Below are positions 9,950 to 15,742 of a DNA stretch of 64,000 nt, in pieces. Source of the DNA: Desulforamulus hydrothermalis Lam5 = DSM 18033 (GTDB lineage: Bacteria > Bacillota > Desulfotomaculia > Desulfotomaculales > Desulfotomaculaceae); the NCBI RefSeq assembly GCF_000315365.1, contig NZ_CAOS01000009.1, positions 62,001 to 126,000 on the forward strand. The letters are read 5' to 3'. Below the pieces are notes generated by a model. That model saw nothing but the letters and a program-made list of their open reading frames with translations. It was not told where the DNA came from and did not search any database. The position numbers were made by a program, and so were the translations under genes. Within the stretch, counting starts at the first letter, position 1. The number at the start of each line of letters is the position of its first letter.

Positions 9950-10231
9950 ATGCAGCATCCAACCAATACGAGAATTATTTTTGCTGACAGTGTGGCGGAA
10001 GCCAGGGAGAAATATTTGGCGCTCAACATTAAGACGAAAGACCCTAACCCCGGCGTAGAGGTGCTTAAACCTATCGAAGATGAAGAGTTTGACATTAATT
10101 CTGACATCAATTTGATTGGCGAGGTTTCGGTAGGGCCTTCAATCATGGAGGAGATTCGGAAAGACCCGGCAAGGGCCTTTGTGGTATACTTCCTGGAGGA
10201 TCCCCAGAATTTTGTCGAGTCAGCATCTTAA
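9950..10231 (+). CDS. hypothetical protein, 93 residues
   Basis: ATG 9950 is preceded by AGGAGG. The protein is acidic and soluble: a possible beta-alpha start (RIIFADSVAEAREKYLAL), an acidic middle and a helical C-terminus. No motif identified. An intrinsic terminator follows about 65 bases after the stop. Confidence 0.6.
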   Translation: MQHPTNTRIIFADSVAEAREKYLALNIKTKDPNPGVEVLKPIEDEEFDINSDINLIGEVSVGPSIMEEIRKDPARAFVVYFLEDPQNFVESAS

Positions 10232-10326: not shown

Positions 10327-10458
10327 ATGGGTTAATAATTTAGACTATTCAAAAAATTAAATTAATATAGATTGTTTTCTGTTAGTAAGGCAGGTTAAAT
10401 TTAATCAGCGTAGAACTTTAGAGTAAATAAACCTATCGGGCGGAGGGGGGTACTTTGG

Positions 10459-11610
10459 TTGCAATCACTTAAACAACAAATCACTATTTTGGTTGTCGTC
10501 GTAACCTTAGTGCTTGCCGTTTGTTTTATGATAGCAGTGGGCTTACAGATAAAAAAGTCCTCAGAGCTGGCAGCTATAACAAAGGCAAAAAGTGATATAG
10601 CTACAGCCAAAACCATTATCGATTTAAAGTATCCCGGGCCTTGGCATGTGGTGGATGGGTACCTTTATAAGGGCGAGGTCAAAATGAATAATAATTTTGA
10701 GGTTGTTGATTATATCAGCAGTCTTACGGGAGATACCTGCACCCTGTTTCTTGGCAATACCCGGGTAGCCACAACCATAAAAAAAGCCGACGGTCAAAGA
10801 GCGGTGGGTACCCACTCTTCGGATGTGGTGGCCAAAAAGGTGCTGACCGAAGGCAAAGATTATCTTGGAGAAGCAGAAGTGGTGGGGGAAAAGTATCAAA
10901 CAGCCTACAGTCCGATTTACGATCACAGGGGAAATATCATAGGCATGTTTTATGTTGGTATTTCCAAAAAGTTTTATGACCAACTGCTGTATGAATCCCT
11001 TTGGCGTATGGCCTTGATTGGAACTGCTTTAACGCTGCTGGTTTTTGGGGGAACGCTTTATTTTACTCAGAAATTTATCATTGAACCGCTCAAATTGATT
11101 CAGGCGGAAACCCAAAAGGTTGCTGCCGGTAATATTTCGGCCTCAGTGGCTATAGGTTATAAAAATGAGATCGGGGAACTGGCTCATTCATTTAACCAGC
11201 TGGTAGAATTAATCCAAGGTTTAACACAACAAATCAGTAAAAACGCAGGTGCCGTATTACCCCCGGCAAACCATGCTGTTATTGCCGATGGTGTCATTGC
11301 CGATACTGAAAACCATGAAGCGACGGTCTGTGAGCAATTAAAGGAGGTTAAAGAAATTAAAGAAGATTGGGGGGAGTTACCCAAAGGTTTAAATGAAACA
11401 ACTTTGCAGCAAATTCTTAATTATTTAAAAAGTCGGCAAGGTCATTTATCAGTGTCTGAAATTGCCGAAGAAGTTAAACTGACCAAAGTAACTGTACGTC
11501 GTTATCTTGATTTTATGGAAAAGTGCGGCAGGGTAAAAGTAGAAATGCAATACGGCCCTATTGGCAGGCCGTTAAAATTGTATACATTATTAAGTAATTA
11601 CCGTCAGTAG
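10459..11610 (+). CDS. membrane-bound Cache-HAMP sensor with CitB/DcuR-type winged HTH
   Basis: 383 residues with an unusual architecture. TM1 (about 8-30) leads an extracytoplasmic single-Cache domain of the sCache_3 kind (about 35-172; WHVVDGYLYKG, TLFLGNTRVATT, RAVGTHSSDVV, YSPIYDHRGNIIGMFYVGIS). TM2 (about 178-200) is followed by a HAMP linker (to about 255), a linker and then a C-terminal HTH (about 315-375; HLSVSEIAEEV, TVRRYLDFME, YGPIGRP). That HTH type is normally the output of CitB/DcuR response regulators. There is no kinase, receiver or chemotaxis domain. I infer a one-component, membrane-tethered transcription regulator for a small carboxylate-like ligand. Start TTG 10459 follows GGAGGGGGG. 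Transcribed alone between two terminators. Confidence 0.8.
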   Translation: MQSLKQQITILVVVVTLVLAVCFMIAVGLQIKKSSELAAITKAKSDIATAKTIIDLKYPGPWHVVDGYLYKGEVKMNNNFEVVDYISSLTGDTCTLFLGNTRVATTIKKADGQRAVGTHSSDVVAKKVLTEGKDYLGEAEVVGEKYQTAYSPIYDHRGNIIGMFYVGISKKFYDQLLYESLWRMALIGTALTLLVFGGTLYFTQKFIIEPLKLIQAETQKVAAGNISASVAIGYKNEIGELAHSFNQLVELIQGLTQQISKNAGAVLPPANHAVIADGVIADTENHEATVCEQLKEVKEIKEDWGELPKGLNETTLQQILNYLKSRQGHLSVSEIAEEVKLTKVTVRRYLDFMEKCGRVKVEMQYGPIGRPLKLYTLLSNYRQ

Positions 11611-11657: not shown

Positions 11658-12024
11658 TTAACACGGTGGCAAACGAGAATGGTCGCTTTACTAAGCCAGG
11701 AGCGGCCAATTTTATATTAACAATTACAAACCCACATCTCGAAAGGCAGTTACTTAATTAATTTAATTAACTTAATTTTATAAAAAATGAGTAAAGCAGG
11801 GCAATTGATTAAGCACCAGCAAATATTTATTTGAAAATTTTAAATATACAAATAAATTTTATGTTTCATATTTACATAAAGTTGCACGCCGTTGGCTAAT
11901 GACATACAATTTTTATTGTAATCGTTCTGTGCACGTTATTTAAAAATGTCCAGGTGAATATAAATAAAGAGAAAAGCCCACCAAAGGGTTATATGGGAAA
12001 ATGCAGGCGCGGTGTTTTAATATT
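11658..12024. other. AT-rich intergenic stretch, no gene seen
   Basis: About 370 bases rich in ATTAATT-type runs. Reading frames here are short, lack ribosome binding sites and look random. No promoter or RNA gene is convincing. Confidence 0.5.
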
Positions 12025-12055
12025 AAAGGTGGTGGCCGGTTGCAACACCACCTTT
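12025..12055. repeat. hairpin 3 downstream of the hydrogenase operon
   Basis: Perfect 10-base inverted repeat AAAGGTGGTG/CACCACCTTT with an 11-base loop. No T-run follows on either strand; it may be an RNA stabiliser or a protein site. Confidence 0.5.
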
Positions 12056-12073
12056 CACCTGGACAAAAGAAAA

Positions 12074-12094
12074 AACCCGACTAGGTATCGGGTT
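12074..12094 (-). terminator. second terminator of the hydrogenase operon
   Basis: AACCCGA/TCGGGTT stem; on the minus strand it runs straight into TTTTTCTTTT. Confidence 0.65.
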
Positions 12095-12135
12095 ATACAG
12101 AAAAATAAAGCAGGCGCGATTTATAACTATTATAA

Positions 12136-12172
12136 AAGAAGGGCGGGGTATATTTCAACCACCGCCCTTCTT
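12136..12172 (-). terminator. first terminator of the hydrogenase operon
   Basis: Perfect 11-base stem AAGAAGGGCGG/CCGCCCTTCTT, 18 bases beyond the stop of the NrfD-like gene, followed by TTATAATAG on the minus strand. Confidence 0.75.
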
Positions 12173-12190
12173 ACCTAGCACAAAATTTCT

Positions 12191-13336
12191 TTAGGCGGCA
12201 TGACTGTGATGCTCGTCGTCTTCCAAAATGCGGAAGTTTTCAACAATGAAGCAGTAAGCCAGTACGCCCATGGCTACCAGGCCGGCGCTGACAGTAAATT
12301 CAGCTAAGGAAGGAACATAAGATACCCCGGTGGAACGGATCATACCGGTAATTACCACGTTCATGCGGTTCAATACGACGCCCAGGCTTACCAGTAAACC
12401 AAAGATAAACAAACCGCTGCGAGAACTGCTGAAATTACTGAAGCAAATAAAAATGGGGATAATGATACCGAAAATCATTTCAATTAAGAACATATTAGCT
12501 TCAAAGGTACCGGAAAATACCAGATTAAATACACCACGGTTCATTAAATCAAAGATTTTCAGTACCAGATATATAATCATGGCATATCCGGAAACTCTTA
12601 TCAACTTACGCAACACAGGAATAGGAATCCAGTGGTTGTAAGCCTTGCCGGCCAGGGTGGTTTCCACGCAAATCATGGCAGGACCCACGAAGAAAGATGA
12701 CATTAAGAAAAATAAGAAGATAATGGGCGACCACCATAACGGGTACAGCTTGTCAACCATCAGCAGGTAAAGGGCACCCAGCGAAGATTGGTGCAGGGTG
12801 GGGAAAATGATACCAACAATCATTAACACGGGAAGGGCGGCCTTGAAAATATTGTGGAACCTTTTCCCGATACGCTCGGTGGCAATTTCACCAAACTCCA
12901 GAATTTGCACAGTTGTATAGCAGGAAACGCACCAGAAAACTTCAAACAGAACCGAGGAATGACCCCAGGATACAAAGGGGCGCCAGAAATTAAACCACTG
13001 GCCAATATCAAGGAACAGTCCGGCCATAACCAGCAGGTAACCAAGTAATGAAGTCAGCATTGCACTGCGGGCGATGGGATGGAAATAATCCCGGTGTAAA
13101 ACGTGTACAATTAAAGCTGTACCATAACCGCCACCGGCCAGGGCAACACCGCAGAGAACGTCAAAGCCGATCCACAGGCCCCAGGGCCATTCATCGCTCA
13201 AGTTGGTAACAATCCCCAGACCGGTAACTAAACGAAAAATAATGATGGCAGTGGCCACTGCGGATAACAGCAGCAGTAATACACGTATGGGAGTAATTCG
13301 AAAACTCCACTTCTGGGCTTGGGCGTGAGACGCCAT
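12191..13336 (-). CDS. NrfD/HybB-type quinone-interacting membrane subunit
   Basis: 381-residue integral membrane protein with about nine or ten hydrophobic helices, of the NrfD/PsrC/HybB superfamily, which pass electrons between a periplasmic or exported iron-sulfur protein and the quinone pool. Typical stretches are LSDEWPWGLWIGFDVLCGVALAGGGY near the N-terminus and the central conserved helices. I choose ATG 13336, 5 bases after GGGGGGATC, rather than the longer frame starting at 13405. It is the last gene of the hydrogenase operon and should be the membrane anchor. The C-terminus is His-rich (DDEHHSHAA). Confidence 0.82.
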   Translation of the reverse strand: MASHAQAQKWSFRITPIRVLLLLLSAVATAIIIFRLVTGLGIVTNLSDEWPWGLWIGFDVLCGVALAGGGYGTALIVHVLHRDYFHPIARSAMLTSLLGYLLVMAGLFLDIGQWFNFWRPFVSWGHSSVLFEVFWCVSCYTTVQILEFGEIATERIGKRFHNIFKAALPVLMIVGIIFPTLHQSSLGALYLLMVDKLYPLWWSPIIFLFFLMSSFFVGPAMICVETTLAGKAYNHWIPIPVLRKLIRVSGYAMIIYLVLKIFDLMNRGVFNLVFSGTFEANMFLIEMIFGIIIPIFICFSNFSSSRSGLFIFGLLVSLGVVLNRMNVVITGMIRSTGVSYVPSLAEFTVSAGLVAMGVLAYCFIVENFRILEDDEHHSHAA

Positions 13337-13370
13337 AGTGATCCCCCCAATTCTCTGGATATTTAAACTG

Positions 13371-14156
13371 TTAGGCTTTAATATTTTTATTGTTTTCCTT
13401 GGCAATTTGGTTGCGCCGCTTGGTATAGTGGTAAAGACCGGTTAAAACAACGCCCCACGCAATGCCCACAAAGGGAGTGGCGTGCATGTAAGCCTCGGTA
13501 TAGCTGGGCAGCGGACGCTTGGTAACATTGGTTTTAAAACCTAATTGCTCAAAGGGGATATCAGAAATATAAATCCACTCAGTGCCGCCAACTTCTGTTT
13601 CGCCAAAAATGTGTTTTACATATTTAGGATCCTTGGCAATTATGGCCTTGGCTTCTTTTAACAGTTCTTCCCGGTCTCCGTATTTAAATACGCCGGCCGG
13701 GCAAACAGACACACAGGCAGGTGCTTCGCCTTTAGCTACTTTATTGCTGCACATCATACACTTTGTTACCAGCGGGAAAGATTTTTCCCACTCGTATTTA
13801 GGAACATTGAAGGGACAGGCCACCATGCAGTAACGGCAACCAACGCACAAATGCGGATAATAAATTACCGGGCCTTCTTTGGTTTTTTGGAACGCCTTAG
13901 CAAAGCAGGCAGAAGCGCAGGCAGGTTCCTTGCAGTGGAAGCACTGCTGCTTGACAAAACGCCAGACAGGTTGTCCTTCTTTATTTTTGATTTCGTGAAA
14001 CTTAACCACAGTCCAGTTTTTATCTGAAAGTTTAACGTCAGGGCCCACGGTGGGCTGTTTTTCATCCCACTTGGTGTCGTTATATAGCTTGCAGGCAACG
14101 GTACAACTGCCGCAGCCTACACATTTGGTAATATCGACCAGAACGCCTTTTGCCAT
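13371..14156 (-). CDS. HybA/DsrO-like 4-cluster ferredoxin subunit with C-terminal anchor
   Basis: 261 residues. Cys motifs at CVGCGSCTVACK (about 11-22), CFHCKEPACASACF, CVGCRYCMVACPFNVP and the CMMC...CVSVCP pair fit four [4Fe-4S] clusters, as in DmsB/HybA electron-transfer subunits. One hydrophobic helix (about 226-242) is followed by a basic tail, so the Fe-S domain probably lies outside with the tail inside. It has no Tat signal, so it may be exported together with the Tat-signal hydrogenase. ATG 14156 follows GGGAGGTGA by 8 bases. It should wire the catalytic subunit to the NrfD-like protein. Confidence 0.85.
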   Translation of the reverse strand: MAKGVLVDITKCVGCGSCTVACKLYNDTKWDEKQPTVGPDVKLSDKNWTVVKFHEIKNKEGQPVWRFVKQQCFHCKEPACASACFAKAFQKTKEGPVIYYPHLCVGCRYCMVACPFNVPKYEWEKSFPLVTKCMMCSNKVAKGEAPACVSVCPAGVFKYGDREELLKEAKAIIAKDPKYVKHIFGETEVGGTEWIYISDIPFEQLGFKTNVTKRPLPSYTEAYMHATPFVGIAWGVVLTGLYHYTKRRNQIAKENNKNIKA

Positions 14157-14185
14157 GGGCTTTTCACCTCCCAATTAATCCAGAG

Positions 14186-15742
14186 TTATGCTTCTTTCTT
14201 AACAGTTAAAGTTTTGCTGCGATCGGTATAATGGGTGTGCAGCAATTCGTGCGCCAGGTGACTGTTAGGGTTTTCCAGGAATTTTTCGTAGAGGGCCAGC
14301 ACTTCCTTGTTTTCATGGCTCTTGCGTTTGACATAAATGTGAGCATCAGCATTGTAAATGCTGTTAATACGGGCTTGCCGCACCTGGTCAGAGGGCGGCA
14401 GTGAGGTGCGGGGTTGGCCGCCGCCGCTAATGCAACCACCAGGACAGCACATAAATTCGATAAAGTGCCAAGGGGCTTCTTTTTTGCGCACAGCCTCCAG
14501 AATAGGACGGGCGTTGCTCAGACCATGGACGACAGCAACTTTTATGGTGCCTACACCGGGGATGTCGACAGCAGCCTCCTTACAACCCTTCAGGCCGCGG
14601 ATGGGAGTCAAGTTCAGTAATGCTTCCGGCGGTTCCTGTTTAGTGATAAGGAAGTAGGCAGAACGAATGGCTGCTTCCATCACGCCGCCGGTAGCGCCAA
14701 AGATTAAACCGGCACCGGAGCTTTCGCCCATTAAAGAGTCATATTTTTCGTCCGACAGTGAGTTCAAATCAATGCCTTTGCTCTTAATTAAACGGGCCAA
14801 TTCCCGGGTGGTGAGAACCACGTCAACATCTCTCATCTGTGGTTTGCCGTTGTACTTGCCGGCACTGTTCATTTCCGGGCGAGCTGCCTCAAACTTTTTG
14901 GCTGTACAAGGCATAATGGAAACCGAGAAGATTTTTTCGGGGTTGATACCCTTTTCCTTAGCATAGTAAGTTTTAATTAAAGCGCCAAGCATCTGTTGGG
15001 GCGACTTACAGGTTGACATGTGAGACAACAGGTCCGGATAATAATATTCACAGAACTTAACCCAACCGGGGCTGCAGGAGGTAAACTGCGGCAGCGGTTC
15101 GTGAATTTGGCCGGTAATCCTTTTAATTAATTCTGTACCTTCTTCAAAAATGGTCAGGTCGGCGGAAAAGTTAGTATCGAAAACAGCATCAAAGCCCAGT
15201 TTTTTCAGGGCGGCAACCTGTTTGCCTTCTACGAAAGTACCGGGTGCCATACCAAATTCCTCACCCAAAGCAACCCTGGTGGCGGGAGCGGTTTGTACAA
15301 CCACATGAATATTTTTGTCTGCCAGTGCTTGGACAACTTTGTCAATGTCATCACGCTCAGTAATAGCAGCGGTGGGGCACCATAATGTACACTGCCCGCA
15401 GTTAACACAGGTAATGTCATTTTTAATCGGGAGTTCATAGTACCCAAAAACTGTTTGCACCCTCTGGCAAACCTCTATGCACTGACCGCACAGGATGCAT
15501 TTTTTATCATCCCGGGTAATAGAAGGGTTAGCCGGATCAATGGGTACACGCCCCTTAACTTGAATGGGGTAAGAACTGGCCACTTGATACTGCTGCGGCA
15601 TCCAGCCTTTGCCCCCGGCGGGATCTGTACTGCAACCGGCAATGGTTGCAGTGATTCCGGCAAGACCAATACCCCCCATCATTTTGAGGAAGCCCCGCCT
15701 GGTCAGTTGCCTTTCTTTTTCTCTGGCTTCTTGGTTCTGCAT
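14186..15742 (-). CDS. Tat-exported [FeFe] hydrogenase, large and small subunit fused
   Basis: 518 residues. A twin-arginine signal LTRRGFLKMMGG (about 13-24) is followed by an apolar stretch ending near GCS. Two [4Fe-4S] motifs follow (CILCGQCIEVCQ about 79; CVNCGQCTLWCP about 111). The H-cluster motifs are complete: L1 TSCSPGW (about 222), L2 MPCTAKK (about 276), L3 EFMCCPGGCISGGG (about 428). The C-terminal part (about 465 on) resembles the iron-hydrogenase small subunit (ALYEKFLENP...HELLHTHY). It catalyses reversible H2 oxidation outside the membrane. It leads the operon with the ferredoxin and NrfD-type subunits, so electrons probably reach or leave menaquinone. H-cluster maturases HydEFG are not in the window. 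Confidence 0.92.
   Translation of the reverse strand: MQNQEAREKERQLTRRGFLKMMGGIGLAGITATIAGCSTDPAGGKGWMPQQYQVASSYPIQVKGRVPIDPANPSITRDDKKCILCGQCIEVCQRVQTVFGYYELPIKNDITCVNCGQCTLWCPTAAITERDDIDKVVQALADKNIHVVVQTAPATRVALGEEFGMAPGTFVEGKQVAALKKLGFDAVFDTNFSADLTIFEEGTELIKRITGQIHEPLPQFTSCSPGWVKFCEYYYPDLLSHMSTCKSPQQMLGALIKTYYAKEKGINPEKIFSVSIMPCTAKKFEAARPEMNSAGKYNGKPQMRDVDVVLTTRELARLIKSKGIDLNSLSDEKYDSLMGESSGAGLIFGATGGVMEAAIRSAYFLITKQEPPEALLNLTPIRGLKGCKEAAVDIPGVGTIKVAVVHGLSNARPILEAVRKKEAPWHFIEFMCCPGGCISGGGQPRTSLPPSDQVRQARINSIYNADAHIYVKRKSHENKEVLALYEKFLENPNSHLAHELLHTHYTDRSKTLTVKKEA

Follow-up and report, generated by a model that had tools for sequence, protein, structure and literature searches.

The regulator gene in the window, by which we mean the whole 64-kb stretch of DNA analysed here, probably encodes a formate-responsive, membrane-tethered one-component transcription activator (Table 1). 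This reading rests on the architecture, single origin, residue conservation, neighbour association and operator, all of which were obtained by computation. We infer formate binding, dimerisation, DNA binding from the membrane and activation, not repression, along the following route. External formate would bind to R102, T105 and T118 of the sCache_3_3 domain, and the signal would be relayed via TM2 and the HAMP domain to a cytoplasmic winged HTH on a flexible linker. A regulator dimer would bind a tandem repeat with a period of about 10 bp abutting the -35 box of the target promoter, where RNA polymerase would be recruited in the manner of a class II activator. The next operon, encoding a formate dehydrogenase, a formate/nitrite-family transporter (FNT) or an [FeFe]-hydrogenase, would be the target in most relatives.

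The gene is a single intact ORF of 383 amino acids with a TTG start, preceded by the ribosome-binding site GGAGGGGG at approximately 10442-10450. The layout of the protein runs from TM1 through the sCache_3_3 domain to TM2-HAMP, a disordered linker and the C-terminal winged HTH; the sensor and the DNA-binding domain are joined in one protein, whose membrane location is predicted. The first-pass annotation had described a Cache-HAMP sensor fused to a CitB/DcuR-type winged HTH, with kinase and receiver missing, and the Pfam and NCBIfam profile matches bore this out. In particular, the Pfam sCache_3_3 score was 131 bits against a cut-off of 28.8, and neither a kinase nor a receiver domain with a phosphoacceptor was detected by Pfam or NCBIfam, nor a C-terminal MCP signalling domain by Pfam. 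The Cache assignment stood; its subtype was found to be sCache_3_3 and not sCache_3_2, the subtype of CitA and DcuS. The profile search proposed as a check on the C-terminal HTH also came out in favour of this domain: Pfam HTH models matched residues 315-363, with HTH_11 over its cut-off (E 7.8e-08), and NCBIfam matched residues 293-380 to the DcuR output domain (E 1.8e-11). HTH_64, the CitB/DpiA-specific Pfam model, scored 16 bits against a cut-off of 27 in the regulator and exceeded its cut-off in two homologues, L099 and L119. The AlphaFold model (mean pLDDT 70.8) revealed a long helix 1 at residues 2-57, a Cache fold at 62-169, a TM2 continuous with HAMP, a low-confidence segment at 263-303 and a winged HTH at 313-377. 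This low-confidence segment agreed with the flexible linker that had been placed before the HTH. The position of the HTH was likewise as described, C-terminal in a protein with two TMs and the sensor between them, unlike ToxR/CadC. Taken as sequence and model evidence, these data support a membrane sensor of the one-component kind whose C-terminal CitB/DcuR-type HTH follows a HAMP domain.

Table 1. Features of the regulator locus (positions in the window)
Feature	Position	Strand	Basis
Membrane one-component regulator gene	10459..11610	+	ORF and ribosome-binding site; full length kept in ~30 other loci
sCache_3_3 extracytoplasmic sensor, residues 75-177	10681..10989	+	PF17202 E 2.4e-38; best PDB matches 8py0/8py1
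Predicted formate-contact residues R102, T105, T118 (R, +3, +16)	10762..10812	+	PacF spacing; 31/34 fusions
HAMP domain, residues 206-251, after TM2	11074..11211	+	PF00672 E 3.2e-10
Variable low-confidence linker, residues 263-303	11245..11367	+	pLDDT <50; gapped in alignment
CitB/DcuR/DpiA-type winged HTH, residues 306-377	11374..11589	+	Pfam, NCBIfam, AlphaFold model, homologue comparison
Predicted operator TTTATGTTTCATATTTACATAAAGTTGCAC (last 6 = -35 box), 17-bp spacer, -10 TACAAT	11858..11910	+	28.0 bits
119-bp element, terminal inverted repeats TGTCCAGGTGAA/TTCACCTGGACA	11947..12065		Sequence; right end where regulator-less sisters resume similarity
Tat-type [FeFe]-hydrogenase operon (HydA, HmcB-like, NrfD/HmcC-like), convergent neighbour	12191..15742	-	Profile matches; in five sister genomes without the regulator

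At least one full-length fusion was present in 15 of 399 genomes drawn across the phylum. Within the order (113 genomes), three families contained full-length fusions; a search of the class returned the same set, and a peptide-pattern scan found complete fusions in Bacillota only. The scores formed two groups, with full-length fusions at or above about 300 bits and sensor-only relatives scoring less than about 290 bits. The latter were chemoreceptors, apart from a small number of GGDEF and other proteins, and their matches ended near residue 300-340. In a tree of the sensor and HAMP regions, all 32 of the 32 HTH fusions formed one clade (support 100/98), which argues for one fusion event as the probable origin, joining a chemoreceptor-type sensor to a CitB-type HTH. 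All other rows of the tree were GGDEF proteins or chemoreceptors; the relatives recovered included no histidine kinase. The regulator HTH was 47-54% identical to the closest response-regulator-sized matches in related genomes, one of which (L017) carries a receiver and HTH_64. The phylum survey that the first-pass annotation had called for also bore on its fear of an artefact: a sequencing error is excluded because the full-length fusions of these 15 genomes form one clade, and a frameshift joining two genes is ruled out by the same undivided architecture in about 30 other loci. Elsewhere in the host genome, a similar sensor and HAMP are joined to GGDEF/EAL domains (L003, G000:C8:110115-110900), which suggests a possible input of the same signal into c-di-GMP signalling as well.

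The genes 3' of the fusions were formate dehydrogenase operons, FNT genes or [FeFe]-hydrogenase operons. Within 8 kb of the 34 fusion loci, we found FNT at 9, formate dehydrogenase at 15 and FeFe-hydrogenase at 9, with at least one of the three at 29; none of them occurred within ~8 kb of 20 control chemoreceptor genes with the same sensor. An FNT or formate dehydrogenase neighbour was present at 22 of 34 fusions and 0 of 20 controls (Fisher p ~1e-6, a value that treats related loci as independent and overstates the independence of the data, as some fusion loci come from related species). The one formate dehydrogenase operon checked contained an in-frame TGA readable as selenocysteine.

A composite operator model, comprising a 30-bp block, a spacer of 16-19 bp and a -10 box, was learned from 19 intergenic sequences that separate regulator and target in other genomes. 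The block consensus, TTtAtTTTa.ttATTTaCAtAAaattGaCa, is AT-rich and has two units about 10 bp apart abutting the -35 box; the spacer is mostly 17 bp and the -10 box is TAaAaT. An operator of that kind was found in most fusion loci, abutting the -35 of the downstream promoter. Upon leave-one-out analysis, 15 of the 19 training promoters, a set not fully independent and partly drawn from related species, scored above all 200 null sequences, and a related composite model gave 169 against 93-98 in Markov controls. When all fusion loci were scanned (589 kb, both strands), nearly all matches of at least 14 bits lay between regulator and target. In L106, which is outside the training set, a 19.8-bit site lies directly upstream of an FNT gene 2.2 kb away, past an intervening gene. 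Chance matches occurred in 2 of the 20 control loci (331 kb), the best at 17.7 and 15.4 bits, and in view of these control matches of 15-18 bits a score is safe alone only above ~20 bits. We also observed that in D. aquiferis (L047) the operator is located upstream of the regulator itself (L047:96-1238), divergent from a hydrogenase operon, which suggests that the regulator may control its own gene there.

The operator predicted in the window was the sole outlier in the 64 kb on both strands, at 28.0 bits against 14.3 for the next best site, under a model trained without the window. No other place in the genome matches the pattern without a mismatch, and its D. putei counterpart scored 28.2 bits. 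The genome contains 44 pattern matches with at most one mismatch (28 with a reversed control pattern); among the 25 examined, only the site at 11858 was high-scoring. This site begins 248 bp 3' of the regulator, where relatives place the promoter of their formate operon. No ORF was found after this promoter, including none conserved with D. putei. The formate dehydrogenase operon of this genome was rejected as a target, as no operator site is present there.

The hydrogenase operon was likewise rejected as the direct target in the window, given that its promoter lacks the operator and that the operon is present in sisters without the regulator. Five sister genomes carry spoIIR, a 93-aa ORF and the hydrogenase operon in the same neighbourhood without the regulator, with similarity resuming at 12065; because of this shared neighbourhood, having the hydrogenase next door is by itself weak evidence in the window. 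The regulator-promoter unit would be a lineage-specific gain or else have been lost in the sisters. The functional assignment is strong at the family level and weaker for the local target. As further observations on this neighbourhood, the 93-aa ORF (9950-10231, MQHPTNTRIIFA...) has no Pfam match and is conserved as the neighbour of spoIIR across the related genomes examined, and a Tat-signal [FeFe]-hydrogenase with HmcB-/NrfD-like subunits was found in all nine Desulforamulus genomes searched (9/9), often with a second copy 75-79% identical. The 119-bp element, whose terminal inverted repeats are 12-13 bp long, is a single genomic copy, and its outline is kept in D. putei.

The promoter without an ORF, the empty site in the five sisters and the right edge at the inverted-repeat element would fit a relic, in which the regulator and its promoter were left beside the hydrogenase operon after the formate cargo was lost. 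We regard this as unlikely, if still credible, for this organism, a Desulforamulus close to D. putei (81-84% protein identity): the regulator ORF is intact and 84% identical to its D. putei counterpart, and D. putei keeps the sensor residues as well as the operator with its -10 box. In a further, very improbable reading, the product of the promoter is a structured non-coding RNA that runs counter to the hydrogenase operon at its 3' end; if true, an antisense or small RNA would let the membrane formate sensor adjust the expression of the hydrogenase. The region 11915-12190 folded better than shuffles on both strands, and an Rfam scan of it gave no match near threshold. A functional RNA is not claimed here, since part of this region is the hydrogenase 3' region kept in the regulator-less sisters and part is the inverted-repeat element.

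The regulator may instead be a repressor or a dual regulator. A site abutting the -35 can block polymerase as well, and sequence does not reveal the direction of control. We nevertheless think this reading improbable: the operator keeps a constant position upstream of the -35 box, and that box frequently deviates from TTGACA, an arrangement typical of class II activators.

As to the signal for the proposed activator, the best solved matches to its sensor by sequence were 8py0 (Oscillibacter ruminantium) and 8py1 (Asticcacaulis benevestitus), described as formate-complexed chemoreceptor sensor domains. Apart from one WalK model, they were also the best fold matches, with CitA and DcuS sensors weaker. 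PMC12501870 reports that R142, T145 and T158 of PacF affect formate binding. The spacing of R102, T105 and T118 is exactly that of these residues, the PDB sequences 8py0 and 8py1 have the same spacing in alignment, and all three residues are kept in 31 of 34 fusion genes. Additionally, PMC12415202 describes formate binding by an sCache_3_3 chemoreceptor domain of gut origin that has the reported formate residues. Counting against this assignment, the R115A variant of Atu0526 still bound formic acid and lost chemotaxis (PMC8698456).

The same protein could respond to another signal, either another small carboxylate or, indirectly, H2 or redox, with formate genes as part of a wider regulon. Some fusion members adjoin hydrogenase or hydrogenase-maturation genes, and a derived subclade of three proteins, one in L119 and two in L120 (L119:5916-7040, L120:2546-3670 and L120:6104-7249), has a cysteine in place of the formate arginine and other neighbours, so specificity can shift. 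None of these three has formate dehydrogenase, FNT or [FeFe]-hydrogenase neighbours, and arginine loss and the absence of formate neighbours thus go together; a UGSC-family gene adjoins one of the L120 proteins. This subclade has probably changed its ligand. For the regulator in the window, a different signal is decidedly improbable, given that the residue set is that of experimentally studied formate sensors and that formate dehydrogenase or FNT genes are neighbours at the 22 loci noted above.

The first-pass annotation had seen a collapsed two-component system. A sensor of CitA/DcuS type, derived from a kinase and recognising citrate or a C4-dicarboxylate, would fit the CitB/DcuR-type output HTH and the weaker CitA/DcuS fold matches, but we consider this reading extremely improbable: the sensor is of the sCache_3_3 subtype with HAMP, which CitA and DcuS lack, no kinase turned up among its closest sensor-HAMP relatives, which are chemoreceptors, and the residues, the formate-bound top structures and the neighbour genes all indicate formate.

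The proposed formate regulator was compared with known systems. The formate chemoreceptors (PacF, 8py0 and 8py1; sCache_3_3 / Cache_3-Cache_2 type) have the sensor domain, the R/T/T residues and the TM-HAMP layout in common with it, whereas their output is chemotaxis signalling and that of the regulator is a DNA-binding HTH. The C-terminal winged HTH with the LPKGLN...TVRRYL...YG.xGRP signature is shared with the CitB/DcuR/DpiA response regulators, but here it has no receiver domain or phosphorylation and is joined to a membrane sensor. ToxR and CadC are known membrane one-component regulators (PMC5936718), and the likeness is that sensing on the outside and DNA binding from the membrane are combined in a single protein; in contrast, they have an N-terminal wHTH, one TM and a C-terminal periplasmic sensor, and the regulator has two TMs, HAMP and a C-terminal HTH of another family. 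In the accessible text of PMC6396743, ArnR/ArnR1 of Sulfolobus is a membrane-bound one-component regulator with an HTH and a putative HAMP; it differs in being archaeal, with the HTH N-terminal and the TMs C-terminal, and that text reports no Cache sensor or formate link.

The earlier statement that no example had been described holds in part. In the open literature, with most subscription papers outside the coverage, we found no functional account of a Cache-HAMP-HTH architecture or of an external-formate one-component regulator. Upadhyay et al. (2016), however, had counted 14 of 276 sCache_3_3 proteins as sCache_3_3-TF (PMC4822843, Table 1); this is the same sensor-output pairing as a table count, and the accessible part of that paper gives no ligand, target, operator or function. 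The fusions look like a family of formate switches that has apparently gone undescribed.

Anaerobes exchange formate as one of their main currencies. FhlA of enterobacteria, the best-known formate regulator to us, resembles the proposed regulator as a formate-responsive transcription activator of formate/hydrogen genes; it is cytosolic and sigma-54 dependent and senses internal formate. A widespread protein that leads from external formate to DNA in a single step would explain how formate dehydrogenase and formate transport are switched in many acetogens, sulfate reducers and their kin. With a defined ligand, residues and operator, it would also be ready for use in formate biosensors and offer a route to studying how a HAMP relay can control a DNA-binding domain.
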